DNA of 64,000 nt from an uncultured Thermoanaerobaculum sp. (GTDB lineage Bacteria > Acidobacteriota > Thermoanaerobaculia > Thermoanaerobaculales > Thermoanaerobaculaceae): the NCBI GenBank assembly GCA_937934115.1, contig CALHAH010000015.1, positions 186,001 to 250,000 on the forward strand, given 5' to 3'. The position numbers and the translations under genes were made by a program. Shown here piece after piece: positions 52,651 through 58,440 of this stretch (position 1 is its first letter; each line of letters starts with the position of its first letter). The notes under the pieces are model-generated. The model was given only the letters and a program-made list of their open reading frames with translations, made no database searches and was not told where the DNA came from.

Positions 52651-54063
52651 ATGGGGGCGACGTCACCTTCCCAGGTTCAACCCGTTGACGGTGCGTCCGT
52701 GCGCGTGCCGTTTAGCGAATCGGCAGAGCGCGCAGTTCTGGGCGCCATCCTCAACGACGGAAACGCCTTTTACCGGGTGGTGGATGCCCTCAAACCCCAG
52801 GACTTTTACCTCGAGCCCCATCAGTTGGTGTTTCAGGCTTTTGCCCAACTGGCCCTGGAGAATACACCCATTGACCTGGTAAGCACGGTAGCCGCGATGG
52901 AACGCATGGGTACGCTTGCTCTGGTGGGTGGCCCCTCCTTCCTGGCTCAGCTGGCGCAGGACCTGCCAGACCCAGAAGCGGTGGAGCATTACGCCGAGAT
53001 CGTACGGGAAAAGGCCATTCGCCGCCAGCTCCTTAAGGTTTCCGGGTCGCTCATGGTGGAGGCGGGGCAAGAGGGAGGTCGCGCTCTCGACCTCCTCGAC
53101 CGCGTGGAAACCATGGTCTTAGAGCTGGCGGACCGCGCCATACAAACCGGCCCACGGAGGGTAAAGGACCTGGCCTACGCCGAGCTGGAGCACCTGGAAC
53201 GCGTCGCCAAATCCGACCACCCGTTTATTGGCTTGGAAACCGGTTTTCGCCGCTTGGACGAGCTCACCTCAGGGTTTAAGGAACAGGAGCTCATTGTCTT
53301 GGCGGCACGACCAGGGGTGGGGAAAACCGCCATGGCCCTCAACATTGCCTCCCACGTGGCCGTGCGGCGCAAAAAAAACGTGCTGTTTTTCTCCTTGGAA
53401 ATGTCGGCGTCCGCCTTGGTACGACGTTTGCTGGCAGCCCAAGCCAAAGTTAGCTTGCAAAAGATCATCAGCGGCCGAATTTCTTTTAAACCCGGGCGCT
53501 CCCCCAGCGATTTGGAGCGGCTGGTGGAGGGTGCCGATCATCTCGCTGAAGCCCCCTTGTGGATTGACGACTCAGCTTCTCTGTCGATCCTCGAACTGCG
53601 AGGCAAAGCCCGCAGGCTCATGATGGAACACGGCCTGGACTTAATCGTGGTTGACTACTTGCAGCTTTTAAGCTCAGGGCTCAAAACCGAAAACCGCACC
53701 CAGGAGGTTTCCGCCATCTCCCGAGGTTTGAAAGCTGTGGCGAAACAGCTCAACGTCCCCATCTTAGCCCTGTCCCAGCTTTCCCGGCAACCGGAGCGGC
53801 GGGGCGCCGACGCCCGCCCCCAGCTTTCGGACTTACGGGAGTCTGGCTCCATTGAACAGGACGCCGACGTGGTGATTTTCATCCATCGCAAGATTGCCCC
53901 GAAAGCCGAGGAGGAAAACATGGAAGAATCCCGGAAGGCTGAAATCATCATTGCCAAGCAACGCAACGGCCCCACGGACGCCTTCCTGTTGGTGTACCTG
54001 GAACCGTACACGCTGTTTACCGATCCCGAGTTCACCGATGAAGCCGCTGCTCCCGTTTTTTGA
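52651..54063 (+). CDS. dnaB: Replicative DNA helicase DnaB
   Basis: A 470-aa DnaB. The N-terminal helical domain has SAERAVLGAILND, the Walker A is ARPGVGKTAMAL, and FFSLEMSA, the Walker B VVDYLQLL and RESGSIEQDADVV are present. It unwinds DNA at the fork as a hexamer. No intein or insertion is seen. Its 3' end overlaps mlaE by 26 bp, coupling a replication gene to lipid transport genes, probably by genome compaction rather than shared function. Confidence 0.96.
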   Translation: MGATSPSQVQPVDGASVRVPFSESAERAVLGAILNDGNAFYRVVDALKPQDFYLEPHQLVFQAFAQLALENTPIDLVSTVAAMERMGTLALVGGPSFLAQLAQDLPDPEAVEHYAEIVREKAIRRQLLKVSGSLMVEAGQEGGRALDLLDRVETMVLELADRAIQTGPRRVKDLAYAELEHLERVAKSDHPFIGLETGFRRLDELTSGFKEQELIVLAARPGVGKTAMALNIASHVAVRRKKNVLFFSLEMSASALVRRLLAAQAKVSLQKIISGRISFKPGRSPSDLERLVEGADHLAEAPLWIDDSASLSILELRGKARRLMMEHGLDLIVVDYLQLLSSGLKTENRTQEVSAISRGLKAVAKQLNVPILALSQLSRQPERRGADARPQLSDLRESGSIEQDADVVIFIHRKIAPKAEEENMEESRKAEIIIAKQRNGPTDAFLLVYLEPYTLFTDPEFTDEAAAPVF

Positions 54064-54817
54064 GGCCGTCGGCCGCCGATGGGTGGCGGTTTTCGAGGAG
54101 GTGGGCCGGTTCTTTTATATCCTGCACAGCACCATCCTGTGGACCTTCCGCAAACCGTTCGATGTGCGGGAGTGGGTGCGGCAAATGGTGCGCGTAGGCG
54201 TGGAATCCGTGCCGGTGGTGGGGCTCACTGCCCTGTTTACGGGCATGGTTTTGGCGTTGCAAACCTACCGTGGCTTTGCCCGCTTCCATGCGGAAGGGTT
54301 CGTGGCTTCGGTGGTTTCCCTTTCCCTCACGCGGGAGCTGGCACCGGTACTGGCCGCCCTGATGATTGCCGGGCGCATTGGTTCCTCCTTTGCCGCGGAA
54401 CTGGGAACCATGCGGGTCACCGAGCAAATAGACGCCCTGTACGCCATGGCCGTGGAACCCGTGCAGTACTTGGTGGTGCCGCGGGTGGGAGCAGCCACGG
54501 TCATGCTTCCCTTTCTTGTGGTCCTTGCTGATGGCATTGGGGTTTTTGGCGGTTATGCGGTGGCGGTAGGGCTTATGGGCGCAAACCCCGTGGTTTACTG
54601 GGACAAAACCTTCCAGTATTTAGACCTCAACGACGTGTTTTCTGGGCTCATCAAAGCCGCGGTTTTTGGGCTTATTTTGGCAGTGACCGGTTGTTCCAAG
54701 GGCTTTTTTACCACCGGTGGAGCGGAAGGGGTGGGACGCGCCACCACCGCTGCTGTGGTCATGGCCTCGCTAGTTATCCTGCTCTCGGATTTCTTCCTCA
54801 CCAAAATTTTGTTTTAG
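54038..54817 (+). CDS. mlaE: MlaE-type permease of an MCE lipid transporter
   Basis: A 259-aa, five-TM permease. It carries the family blocks SVPVVGLTALFTGMVLALQ, LTRELAPVLAALMIAGRIGSSFAAELGTMRVTEQIDAL and FGLILAVTGCSKGFFTTGGAEGVGRATT. With MlaF and an MCE protein it moves phospholipids between membranes. ATG 54038 is inside the end of dnaB. The three genes mlaE-mlaF-mlaD are tightly packed; mlaA, mlaB and mlaC are absent here. Confidence 0.93.
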   Translation: MKPLLPFFEAVGRRWVAVFEEVGRFFYILHSTILWTFRKPFDVREWVRQMVRVGVESVPVVGLTALFTGMVLALQTYRGFARFHAEGFVASVVSLSLTRELAPVLAALMIAGRIGSSFAAELGTMRVTEQIDALYAMAVEPVQYLVVPRVGAATVMLPFLVVLADGIGVFGGYAVAVGLMGANPVVYWDKTFQYLDLNDVFSGLIKAAVFGLILAVTGCSKGFFTTGGAEGVGRATTAAVVMASLVILLSDFFLTKILF

Positions 54818-54826
54818 GGAGGCGGC

Positions 54827-55609
54827 ATGCAAGAACAAAGCTCCGGCAGTTCCCGTCGCCTTCCTAAAATTGCCGTGATAGATCTGTGGAAGTCCTTTTC
54901 CGGCAAGGAGGTGTTGCGAGGCGTCAACCTAACCGTGGCTCCCGGTGAATCCCTGGTTATCGTCGGCGGCTCAGGCGCGGGAAAAAGCGTGCTCTTGAAG
55001 CATCTCATTGGCCTTATCCAACCCGATCGCGGTCATGTGATCGTAGACGGCGAAGACCTGGCCTGTGCCGACCCCGAAAGGTGCCTCGCCATTCGCCGAA
55101 AATTCGGCATGTCTTTCCAAGAAGGGGCGCTTTTCGACTCCATGAACGTTTTCGACAACATCGCGTTCCCCTTGCGCCGTCACACGCGCATGAGCGAAGA
55201 GGAAATTGCCGAAAGGGTGCGAGAGTGCTTAAACCTCGTGCACCTTTCCGGTATCGAAAAAAAAATGCCCGCACAGCTTTCGGGAGGCATGCGGCGGCGG
55301 GTGGGCTTTGCCCGCGCTATTGCCTTAAAACCCGAGATCCTGCTCTTTGACGAACCCAACACCGGACTTGACCCCATTACCGCTGCGGCCATTGACAGGG
55401 TCATCATGGAAATGCGTGACAAACTGCCGGTGACCATGGTCACCATAACCCACGATATGAGCTCGGCGTTTCGCATTGCTGACCGTATTGCCATGCTGCG
55501 GGACGGGAAAATCGTGGCGGTGGCTGCGCCCGAGGAGTTTCGCACGTTGCCTGACCCTTACGTACAAGGCTTTCTAGCGGGACAGCCGGTAGATGAGGAG
55601 GTGGCATGA
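54827..55609 (+). CDS. mlaF: MlaF-type ABC ATPase
   Basis: A 260-aa ATP-binding subunit with Walker A GGSGAGKSVLL, Q-loop FGMSFQEGALFDSMNVFDN, signature QLSGGMRRRVGFARA, Walker B ILLFDEPNTGLDP and switch His in ITHDM. It is preceded by GGGAGG. It energises the MlaE permease encoded upstream, and its stop overlaps the mlaD start (ATGA). Confidence 0.95.
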   Translation: MQEQSSGSSRRLPKIAVIDLWKSFSGKEVLRGVNLTVAPGESLVIVGGSGAGKSVLLKHLIGLIQPDRGHVIVDGEDLACADPERCLAIRRKFGMSFQEGALFDSMNVFDNIAFPLRRHTRMSEEEIAERVRECLNLVHLSGIEKKMPAQLSGGMRRRVGFARAIALKPEILLFDEPNTGLDPITAAAIDRVIMEMRDKLPVTMVTITHDMSSAFRIADRIAMLRDGKIVAVAAPEEFRTLPDPYVQGFLAGQPVDEEVA

Positions 55610-57081
55610 GTCAAACCGCAAAAGTTGGCGCCTTCATGTTGGTGGCGCTGGTGATTTTGGCCGTTTTTATCATCAAGATCGAGGAAATCCCCTTTGGCGC
55701 CAAGGCTGGTCGCCAAACCGTGCAGGCGGAGTTCCCATCGGTGGCTGGACTCGACGTAAAAAGCCCAGTGCGCATTGCGGGCGTACGGGTTGGAATTGTG
55801 GAAAAAATTGAGCTGGCCGGTACCCGGGCGCGCGTTACGCTGTCCCTGGACCCGCAGGTGCGGCTCCACCAAGGGGCGTGGGCCGAGGTCACAAGCCTCG
55901 GAATGCTGGGGGATAAGTACGTGGAGCTGCACCCTGGGCCCCTGGAGGCGCCGCCGCTACCCCCAGGTGTCGTGCTCTCTGGGGAAAGTCCCGTGGGTTT
56001 TGACCAAATTTTGAAAACAGCAGGCGAAATTGGGGGTGACATCAAGGAGGTCACGGCCAGCCTGCGGCGAGCCTTAGGGGGCGAGGCTGGGGCTGCCAAG
56101 CTCGAGGAGATTTTGGAAAACGTTCGCCAGCTCACCGCAGAAACCCGTAATCTCGTGGCGGCCAACCGTGCCGACGTGAGTGCTACCATCGAGAACTTCC
56201 GGGCTTTTTCTGCCACCCTCCGCGACGAACTCCCTAAGCTTGCCGATAAACTGCAAAAGCTCGCGGACAACGTAGATGCCGTGCTGGCGGAGAACCGCAG
56301 CAACGTGTCCGACACCATCGCCAACCTCAAGGACGTGTCGGGGAGGCTGCGAACCTCCGCCGACAACTTAAGCCAAATCACCACCAAGATCGCTAAGGGC
56401 GAGGGGACTATCGGCAAGCTCGTGAACGACGAAGAAACCGTGAACAACCTCAACAGCACCTTGAAATCAGTGGAATCCGGCGTGCAGAGCTTGAAAAACA
56501 CCATTGGGCGGGCCGAACGCTGGCGTTTAGACGTGACCCTGCGCACGGAGAGCCTGCCAAAAGCCGATGACTCGCGCTCAGCCTTTGGCTTTGACCTCCA
56601 CACCACCGAACGGCGGTTTTTCCGTCTCGAGCTCGTAGATTCCCCTTACGGCCGGGTTCGCAATACCCGAGAAACCGTCACCACCACCTTCCCCGATGGT
56701 CACCGCGAAACCTACGTGCAGGAAAAGCAAAAGATCACCGATGCCTCGACGGTTAACGCCCAAATTGGCTACCACTGGGGCACTACCACGGTGCGGGCGG
56801 GGCTTTTCGAGTCTGAAGGCGGCTTTGGCGTGGATCAGGCCCTGCTGCAAAACAAGCTCAAGCTTACGTTGGAAGCCTACGACTTCAACCGTGACATCAA
56901 GCCCCCCCACCTGCGGCTGGAAGGCCGGTACTTCCTCACCCCTAACATCTTTGCCTTTGCCGGTTGGGACGACCCCCGCTGGTCCTCGCGCTCGTCTTTG
57001 CTGGTGGGGGCGGGCATTACCTGGAGGGATGAGGACCTCAAGTATCTTTTGGGGACCGCAGCCTCCTTGGGTGGCAAGTGA
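55606..57081 (+). CDS. mlaD: MCE (MlaD) protein with long helical stalk and probable C-terminal outer-membrane beta-barrel
   Basis: A 491-aa protein, much longer than E. coli MlaD (about 180 aa). It has an N-terminal TM helix (about 7-22) and one MCE domain (about 35-125, VQAEFPSVAGLDVKSPVRIAGVRVG). About 150 residues of helical heptad-like sequence follow (LPKLADKLQKLADNVDAVLAENRSNV; DNLSQITTKIAKGEGTIGKLVND). About 185 C-terminal residues then alternate polar and hydrophobic in strand-like runs (STVNAQIGYHWG, TVRAGLFES, KLKLTLEAYDFNRD, HLRLEGRYFLTPNIFAFAGWDD, SSLLVGAGITWRDEDLKYLLG). I read the last part as a small outer-membrane beta-barrel, so one chain could span the periplasm. Confidence 0.85.
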   Translation: MSQTAKVGAFMLVALVILAVFIIKIEEIPFGAKAGRQTVQAEFPSVAGLDVKSPVRIAGVRVGIVEKIELAGTRARVTLSLDPQVRLHQGAWAEVTSLGMLGDKYVELHPGPLEAPPLPPGVVLSGESPVGFDQILKTAGEIGGDIKEVTASLRRALGGEAGAAKLEEILENVRQLTAETRNLVAANRADVSATIENFRAFSATLRDELPKLADKLQKLADNVDAVLAENRSNVSDTIANLKDVSGRLRTSADNLSQITTKIAKGEGTIGKLVNDEETVNNLNSTLKSVESGVQSLKNTIGRAERWRLDVTLRTESLPKADDSRSAFGFDLHTTERRFFRLELVDSPYGRVRNTRETVTTTFPDGHRETYVQEKQKITDASTVNAQIGYHWGTTTVRAGLFESEGGFGVDQALLQNKLKLTLEAYDFNRDIKPPHLRLEGRYFLTPNIFAFAGWDDPRWSSRSSLLVGAGITWRDEDLKYLLGTAASLGGK

Positions 57082-57111
57082 GGCAAACGTAAGGATGGGC
57101 AAGGCGTCGGC

Positions 57112-58440
57112 GTGAGCGTGTGGGAGTGCATCAACTGCGGCCAAACCACCAGTAAGTGGCTAGGCCGGTGCCCTGCCTGTGGTGCCTTTAACACCTTCGC
57201 GCCACAACCGGAAAAGCGGCGCACCCGCACCCGTTCCCCTGAGCCCGTGCCTTTAGACGCCATTGCTTTAGAAACTCTCCCCCGACGTTCCACCGGTCTG
57301 CCCGGCTGCGACCGGGTTTTGGGTGGCGGCTTGGTGCCCGGCTCGCTGGTGCTTTTGGCTGGCGAACCGGGGGTTGGCAAATCCACCTTGCTCCTGCAAA
57401 TTGCAAACCGTATCGCTGAGGGTGGCAAGGTTCTGTACGCCAGTGCTGAGGAATCAGCGACACAGGTAGCCCTCCGCGCCCGCCGGCTCGCCTGCCAGCA
57501 CCCCAGCGTGTTGCTTTTGGCCGAATCCACGGTGGAGGCCGTTCTCGAGGTGGTAAGCCGACTCAAACCATCACTTTTGGTGGTGGATTCGGTGCAAGCC
57601 ATGCGCTCGGAAAACGTCCCATCCATTCCCGGCAGCGTTACACAGGTACGAGAGGTGGCCGCCCGGGTGGCGGAAGCCGTGAAGAAAAACGGGCCACCGG
57701 CAATCATGGTGGGCCACGTAACCAAGGACGGCACGGTGGCGGGACCCAAGTCACTGGAGCACCTCGTGGACGTGGTGTTGGAGTTTTCCGGAAACACCGC
57801 CCACGCCAACCGCCTGCTGCGGGCCACCAAGAACCGATTCGGCCCGGCCCTGGAGCTGGCCCTCTTTTCCATGGGCGAAATGGGGCTTGAAGAAATTACC
57901 AACCCATCCCAGGCGCTTTTGGCCGATCGCGTGCCGGGAGCCCCGGGCTCGGCCGTAACTGTGGTGCTGGAAGGGCTCTCACCGCTTCTGGTGGAAATCC
58001 AAGCGCTGGTTTCCCGCTCGCCGCTTGTGAACCCGCGCCGAGTGGCCCAGGGCTTTGACGCCGGCCGTTTGGCTTTGCTTTTGGCGGTTGTAGAAAAACG
58101 AGCAGGCGCGAAGCTCGCCGATCGCGATGTGTTCGTAAACGTAGCCGGTGGTCTCGAGGTGGTGGAACCGGCGGCCGACTTAGCGGTGGTGGCGGCCGTG
58201 CTTTCCTCGCTGGCTGATGTCCCCCTCCCGGACGATGCGGTGTTTTTTGGGGAAGTGGGCCTTCTGGGGGAAGTACGAGCGGTGGGTCGCGGCGACGCCC
58301 GCCTGCGGGAAGCGCAGGCTTTGGGTTTTCGCCGCGCGTTTACGGCCAAAAGCGCTTCCCTGGAAGCAAATCCAGCCTTACGTGTGGCGGCCTTTGGGGA
58401 CATTGCTGCTCTCGCCAGGCACTTGAAGTTGCTACACTAA
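57112..58440 (+). CDS. radA: DNA repair protein RadA (Sms)
   Basis: A 442-aa RadA. It has an N-terminal zinc finger (ECINCGQTTSKWLGRCPACG), a RecA-like ATPase with GEPGVGKSTLLLQ and the RadA-specific KNRFG motif (TKNRFGPALEL), and a C-terminal Lon-like domain. It helps branch migration and processing of recombination intermediates. The GTG start is weakly supported but gives Cys6 at the usual place. It lies 30 bp after mlaD. Confidence 0.95.
   Translation: MSVWECINCGQTTSKWLGRCPACGAFNTFAPQPEKRRTRTRSPEPVPLDAIALETLPRRSTGLPGCDRVLGGGLVPGSLVLLAGEPGVGKSTLLLQIANRIAEGGKVLYASAEESATQVALRARRLACQHPSVLLLAESTVEAVLEVVSRLKPSLLVVDSVQAMRSENVPSIPGSVTQVREVAARVAEAVKKNGPPAIMVGHVTKDGTVAGPKSLEHLVDVVLEFSGNTAHANRLLRATKNRFGPALELALFSMGEMGLEEITNPSQALLADRVPGAPGSAVTVVLEGLSPLLVEIQALVSRSPLVNPRRVAQGFDAGRLALLLAVVEKRAGAKLADRDVFVNVAGGLEVVEPAADLAVVAAVLSSLADVPLPDDAVFFGEVGLLGEVRAVGRGDARLREAQALGFRRAFTAKSASLEANPALRVAAFGDIAALARHLKLLH

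Follow-up and report, generated by a model that had tools for sequence, protein, structure and literature searches.

Can a single MlaD chain connect the inner to the outer membrane without a periplasmic shuttle? The question is raised by an mlaD gene whose product continues, after its MCE domain, into long helices and a C-terminal beta domain. We analyzed this gene in a window of 64,000 nucleotides (positions below are those of the window), taken from a genome of 2.42 Mb that is 96.7% complete (G000). The closest relative that we found is labelled Thermoanaerobaculum and shares 82% identity. Our evidence makes it very likely that the locus encodes a lipid ABC transporter of the elongated MlaEFD type, a shuttle-free bridge for which the barrel serves as outer-membrane anchor.

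An elongated mlaD in a conserved operon

The features of the locus are as follows:

54038..54817, + strand: mlaE, ABC permease subunit (PF02405, E 2.4e-80; TIGR00056 above cut-off)
54827..55609, + strand: mlaF, ABC ATPase subunit (PF00005, ABC_tran, E 2.3e-32)
55606..57081, + strand: mlaD with C-terminal predicted barrel, 491 aa
55612..55683, + strand: N-terminal transmembrane helix, residues 3-26 (AF2 helix, hydrophobic sequence)
55714..55938, + strand: MCE domain, residues 37-111 (Pfam MlaD PF02470, E 4.3e-21; Foldseek)
55999..56511, + strand: helical stalk, residues 132-302 (AF2 secondary structure)
56524..57024, + strand: predicted beta-barrel domain, residues 307-473 (read as ten amphipathic strands and an external polar hairpin, 350-378)
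57028..57072, + strand: C-terminal helix, residues 475-489, with a conserved DEDLKYLLG motif

The genes mlaE and mlaF lie directly 5' of mlaD, whose start codon overlaps the mlaF stop codon (ATGA). Read from the sequence, the likely start of mlaE is the ATG at 54038, overlapping the end of dnaB. The best NCBIfam match of the mlaF product is MlaF (NF008809), with a score under the cut-off of that model. The operon is preceded by dnaB and followed by radA, and the order dnaB-mlaE-mlaF-mlaD-radA is the same in most of the Acidobacteriota loci that we examined. Across 52651-58440, lipid transporter genes are thus fixed amid the replication and repair genes dnaB and radA, an odd yet stable neighborhood. 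The MlaD protein aligns over its full length with 28 homologues, with conserved synteny.

An earlier note, made from the sequence of the window, had described mlaE and mlaF as the only mla genes beside mlaD, and the neighboring genes read the same way to us: MlaA, MlaB and MlaC are not encoded adjacent to the operon. For MlaA and MlaC the absence extends to the whole genome, at 96.7% completeness, where no member of either family was found and controls with E. coli and Caulobacter were positive. Four matches to STAS_2 occur elsewhere in the genome, none adjoining the barrel-mlaD operon, so that an MlaB could still be encoded on family grounds. TamB is present and Omp85 has three matches, as expected with an outer membrane. 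At G000:C23:35330-39018 (L061, L067), a TamB-family gene and, shortly 3' of it in the same orientation, an Omp85 gene form a likely tamB-tamA/bamA pair. The genome also carries a second complete mlaE-mlaF-mlaD operon on the same contig as the first (L040:4182-6887; G000:C15 about 10.2-12.9 kb, - strand). The MlaD of this second operon, 394 aa long with a helical tail, has no match to a profile of the barrel domain.

The N-terminal part is MlaD, and a predicted helical stalk follows

Pfam finds a single MCE domain, scoring 75.4 bits to PF02470 where the cut-off is 25.1, and Foldseek matches this domain to the E. coli and P. aeruginosa MlaD structures. With a transmembrane helix, an MCE domain above the curated cut-off, and a MlaE permease and MlaF ATPase encoded alongside, the protein belongs to the MCE/MlaD family. 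It falls short of the canonical Proteobacterial MlaD equivalog, TIGR04430 (87.9 bits against a cut-off of 135), and the genome lacks the MlaA and MlaC of the canonical six-component Mla system. The domain order proposed earlier (transmembrane helix, one MCE domain, helices, beta part) is recovered, the MCE domain by Pfam and the other parts by AF2.

The long helices after the MCE domain that characterize elongated MlaD proteins are found here at residues 132-302, with a break at GEGTIGKL (about residues 265-272). The stalk put forward in the earlier note is therefore present, at a length nearer 170 residues by AF2 than the roughly 150 first estimated. It is modelled with low confidence in the AF2 monomer (29 sequences); the stalk of Veillonella parvula MlaD is likewise low-confidence in prediction (PMC10665443). 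Within residues 146-263, hydrophobicity has a period of 101 degrees at a strength reached in none of 1000 shuffles. Helices that are hydrophobic along a single face should show such a period, and a face of this kind could line a tunnel. If straight, the stalk would measure ~18 nm over its 118-residue helix and a further ~4 nm over its second piece.

The C-terminal domain resembles an outer-membrane barrel

Structure prediction, a check that the earlier note had suggested for the monomer, returned a barrel-like C-terminal domain when this domain was modelled alone (AF2 pLDDT 84, pTM 0.71), giving the AlphaFold2-predicted C-terminal outer-membrane barrel typical of elongated MlaD. The top 50 fold matches in the PDB are membrane beta-barrels in almost all cases. 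The ten-stranded designed barrel TMB10_163 gives the highest TM-score (0.63, by target length), and OmpLA, OmpA and porins rank after the TMB10 designs. Individual E-values in this list are modest (2e-4 and weaker), and the consistency of the list weighs more than any single match.

DSSP assigns 12 strands to residues 307-473. Two of these, 350-361 and 367-378, have polar residues along their whole length and are predicted less confidently; part of this stretch is missing from deltaproteobacterial relatives. Residues 350-378 may form an external hairpin, which would leave ten strands, the number given for elongated MlaD barrels and seen in the best-scoring design, and would place both termini in the periplasm. 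Under the ten-strand reading, the periplasmic turns are short (2-4 residues) and the external loops mostly longer. The beta part spans about 167 residues by AF2 rather than the 185 or so proposed before, and the terminal motif said to end it takes in the final strand together with a helix at the C terminus.

The alternation of hydrophobic and polar residues along the strands was equalled by just 1 of 2000 column shuffles. Given this amphipathicity, the 28 full-length homologues and the conserved synteny, the fusion to mlaD is not a chance one. Conservation also differs between the two faces of the strands. On the polar side mean entropy is 1.21, against 1.67 on the hydrophobic side (p 0.003), and the invariant residues Q386, R397, G399, E423 and D455 are all on the polar side. 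In the MCE domain of the same alignment the pattern is reversed, with 1.89 for polar and 0.83 for hydrophobic positions. A fixed polar side and a variable hydrophobic side are what a lipid-facing barrel should show, whereas a soluble barrel should resemble the MCE domain. This test rests on the alignment and not on fold matching; the strand borders alone are taken from AlphaFold. Pfam has no family for the C-terminal domain, alone or in the 29 relatives, and a sequence-profile search against solved structures gave no real match for it. From fold prediction, fold search and inside-out conservation, which together bear out the barrel of the earlier note, we strongly infer that the C-terminal domain is an outer-membrane beta-barrel.

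Distribution of the barrel, MlaA and MlaC

The barrel profile matched 86 of 297 Acidobacteriota genomes, with one copy each, and 53 of 297 genomes of a second phylum, that of a deltaproteobacterial relative. At the loci that we read, the barrel is fused to MlaD and adjoins mlaF (and mlaE) where the available stretch permits; at a few, neighbors went undetected within a short flank. A collection of plasmids yielded one plain MlaD match only. In several Acidobacteriota, among them G232, G178, G162 and G120, the match to the barrel profile is confined to its second half (positions 82-176 or so), in ORFs of 436-569 aa. To judge from these sequences, the first half of the barrel may have diverged or been partly lost there.

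No MlaA was found in any of the 297 sampled Acidobacteriota genomes, with or without the barrel. Because MlaA is lacking phylum-wide, its absence from G000 agrees with the barrel without being specific to it and is not on its own an argument that the barrel replaces it, and with MlaA at 0/297 co-occurrence is a weak test in Acidobacteriota of the barrel replacing MlaA and MlaC. MlaC-family genes occur in 6 of the 297 genomes, and the barrel is present in five of these six. In one of the six (G001, L069:144-4790), the MlaC-family gene comes right after an outer-membrane efflux (OEP) gene and before an aminotransferase gene, beside a divergent MMPL gene and with no mlaEFD at this locus, the one read through. 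In another (G099, L072), MMPL and OEP genes share a contig with the MlaC-family match. This gene content suggests that an MlaC-like carrier may serve an MMPL exporter in some Acidobacteriota. In a small sample of deltaproteobacterial relatives, MlaA was present in 0/6 genomes with the barrel versus 2/6 barrel-less genomes of mixed groups, and MlaC in 1/6 versus 2/6.

A probable shuttle-free bridge and its alternatives

The architecture of the protein, its conservation and the absence of MlaA and MlaC are direct observations. For the hexamer, the tunnel and the lipid substrate we reason by analogy. Six MlaD chains, as in solved MCE proteins, would assemble their MCE domains into a ring that sits on the inner-membrane MlaE2F2 core. 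Their helices, judging by periodicity and length, may come together as a bundle that spans the periplasm and provides a tunnel or groove with a hydrophobic lining. The barrel of each chain, probably ten-stranded, would anchor the far end of this tunnel in the outer membrane, as fold, conservation and analogy suggest, and the MlaC shuttle and MlaA lipoprotein would become unnecessary. Transport is probably retrograde, as in V. parvula and E. coli. The shuttle-free link between the two membranes that the earlier note proposed is well supported by the barrel evidence, by a genome without MlaA or MlaC and by the V. parvula counterpart (PMC10665443).

The role of the barrel itself can be read in several ways. 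It may stay soluble in the periplasm, outside the outer membrane, as a beta domain binding lipid or protein at the tunnel end, since alternation also occurs in soluble beta domains and the fold list includes one lipocalin-like match (3bdr). The remainder of the top 50 matches, however, are almost all membrane barrels, the polar-side conservation is opposite to that of the soluble MCE domain, and the short periplasmic turns and mostly longer external loops are like those of outer-membrane proteins, making a soluble domain improbable. If the domain is in the membrane, six barrels, or one barrel fused from several chains, could ring a central channel that conducts lipid over the outer membrane. 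MCE proteins are hexamers, and a TolC-like trimeric fusion was raised as possible by the authors of the V. parvula study, who nevertheless held a hexameric ring unlikely from AlphaFold and a single barrel too narrow for a phospholipid (PMC10665443). Here each chain has the sequence of a complete barrel whose polar interior is conserved, in keeping with their view, and we give such a conduit little chance; none of the present findings supports a ring of six. In a bolder version, the six full barrels per hexamer would make a new kind of multi-barrel ring in the outer membrane, with phospholipid passing through or around it, while the barrel-less transporter works alongside and perhaps moves lipid the other way, which we regard as very improbable.

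It is also conceivable, if rather unlikely, that MlaD works with a further outer-membrane partner or shuttle and that the barrel is an accessory anchor only. With its second, barrel-less mlaEFD operon, the cell seems to run MCE transport without a barrel as well, but the genome holds no MlaA or MlaC family member and the conserved operon includes no additional gene. We favor the shuttle-free bridge, with the barrel most likely acting as anchor and docking site and lipids entering or leaving beside it. Anchoring is likelier than conduction because conserved polar and charged residues seem to plug the interior of the barrel.

Implications

The idea of a one-chain, trans-envelope MlaD is right in its main part and has already been published (PMC10665443); the present protein adds a member. 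The word "Acidobacteria" is absent from the main text of that paper. The conservation of such a protein across Acidobacteriota and groups related to them is independent support for the one-chain, trans-envelope MlaD as a common arrangement, and the MlaA-MlaC shuttle would then be the exception rather than the rule. The pattern of fixed polar and free hydrophobic positions provides alignment-based evidence for membrane insertion. Annotation by Pfam overlooks the barrel domain, for which it has no model. If the lineage is thermophilic, as the relative's name Thermoanaerobaculum suggests, it could supply stable proteins for solving the barrel arrangement.

Comparison with known systems

With the E. 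coli MlaFEDB-MlaC-MlaA system, the locus shares MlaE, MlaF and, within MlaD, the TM-MCE part. The E. coli MlaD (183 aa), in contrast, has a short helical end after its MCE domain, and its system uses MlaC and MlaA. PqiB and LetB (YebT), also MCE proteins, cross the periplasm with no need of a shuttle, as proposed here. They do so by stacking several MCE rings and lack an outer-membrane barrel, unlike the single MCE domain, stalk and predicted barrel of the present protein. Mycobacterial Mce1 (8FED/8FEF), which ranks first among the fold matches of the full model, likewise has an MCE domain followed by long helices that form a tunnel. In the heterohexameric Mce1, every chain donates a single strand to one small barrel that all of them share (cited in PMC10665443), whereas each chain of the present MlaD has its own complete barrel domain.

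The closest counterpart is the elongated MlaD of V. parvula, described by Grasekamp et al. 2023 as a trans-envelope bridge with a C-terminal barrel, together with 103 such sequences (PMC10665443). V. parvula MlaD fractionates to both membranes (PMC10665443). The likeness is one of architecture, the two barrels being compared by layout: a transmembrane helix, a single MCE domain, a helical stalk of about 150-170 residues and a C-terminal beta-barrel, encoded in an operon with mlaE and mlaF in a genome that lacks MlaA and MlaC and has TamB. The present protein differs in its length (491 aa versus 419) and in its extra polar hairpin and C-terminal helix; helical extensions occur in some elongated-MlaD members (PMC10665443). 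It also comes from another phylum, and its genome encodes a second mlaEFD that is free of the barrel.
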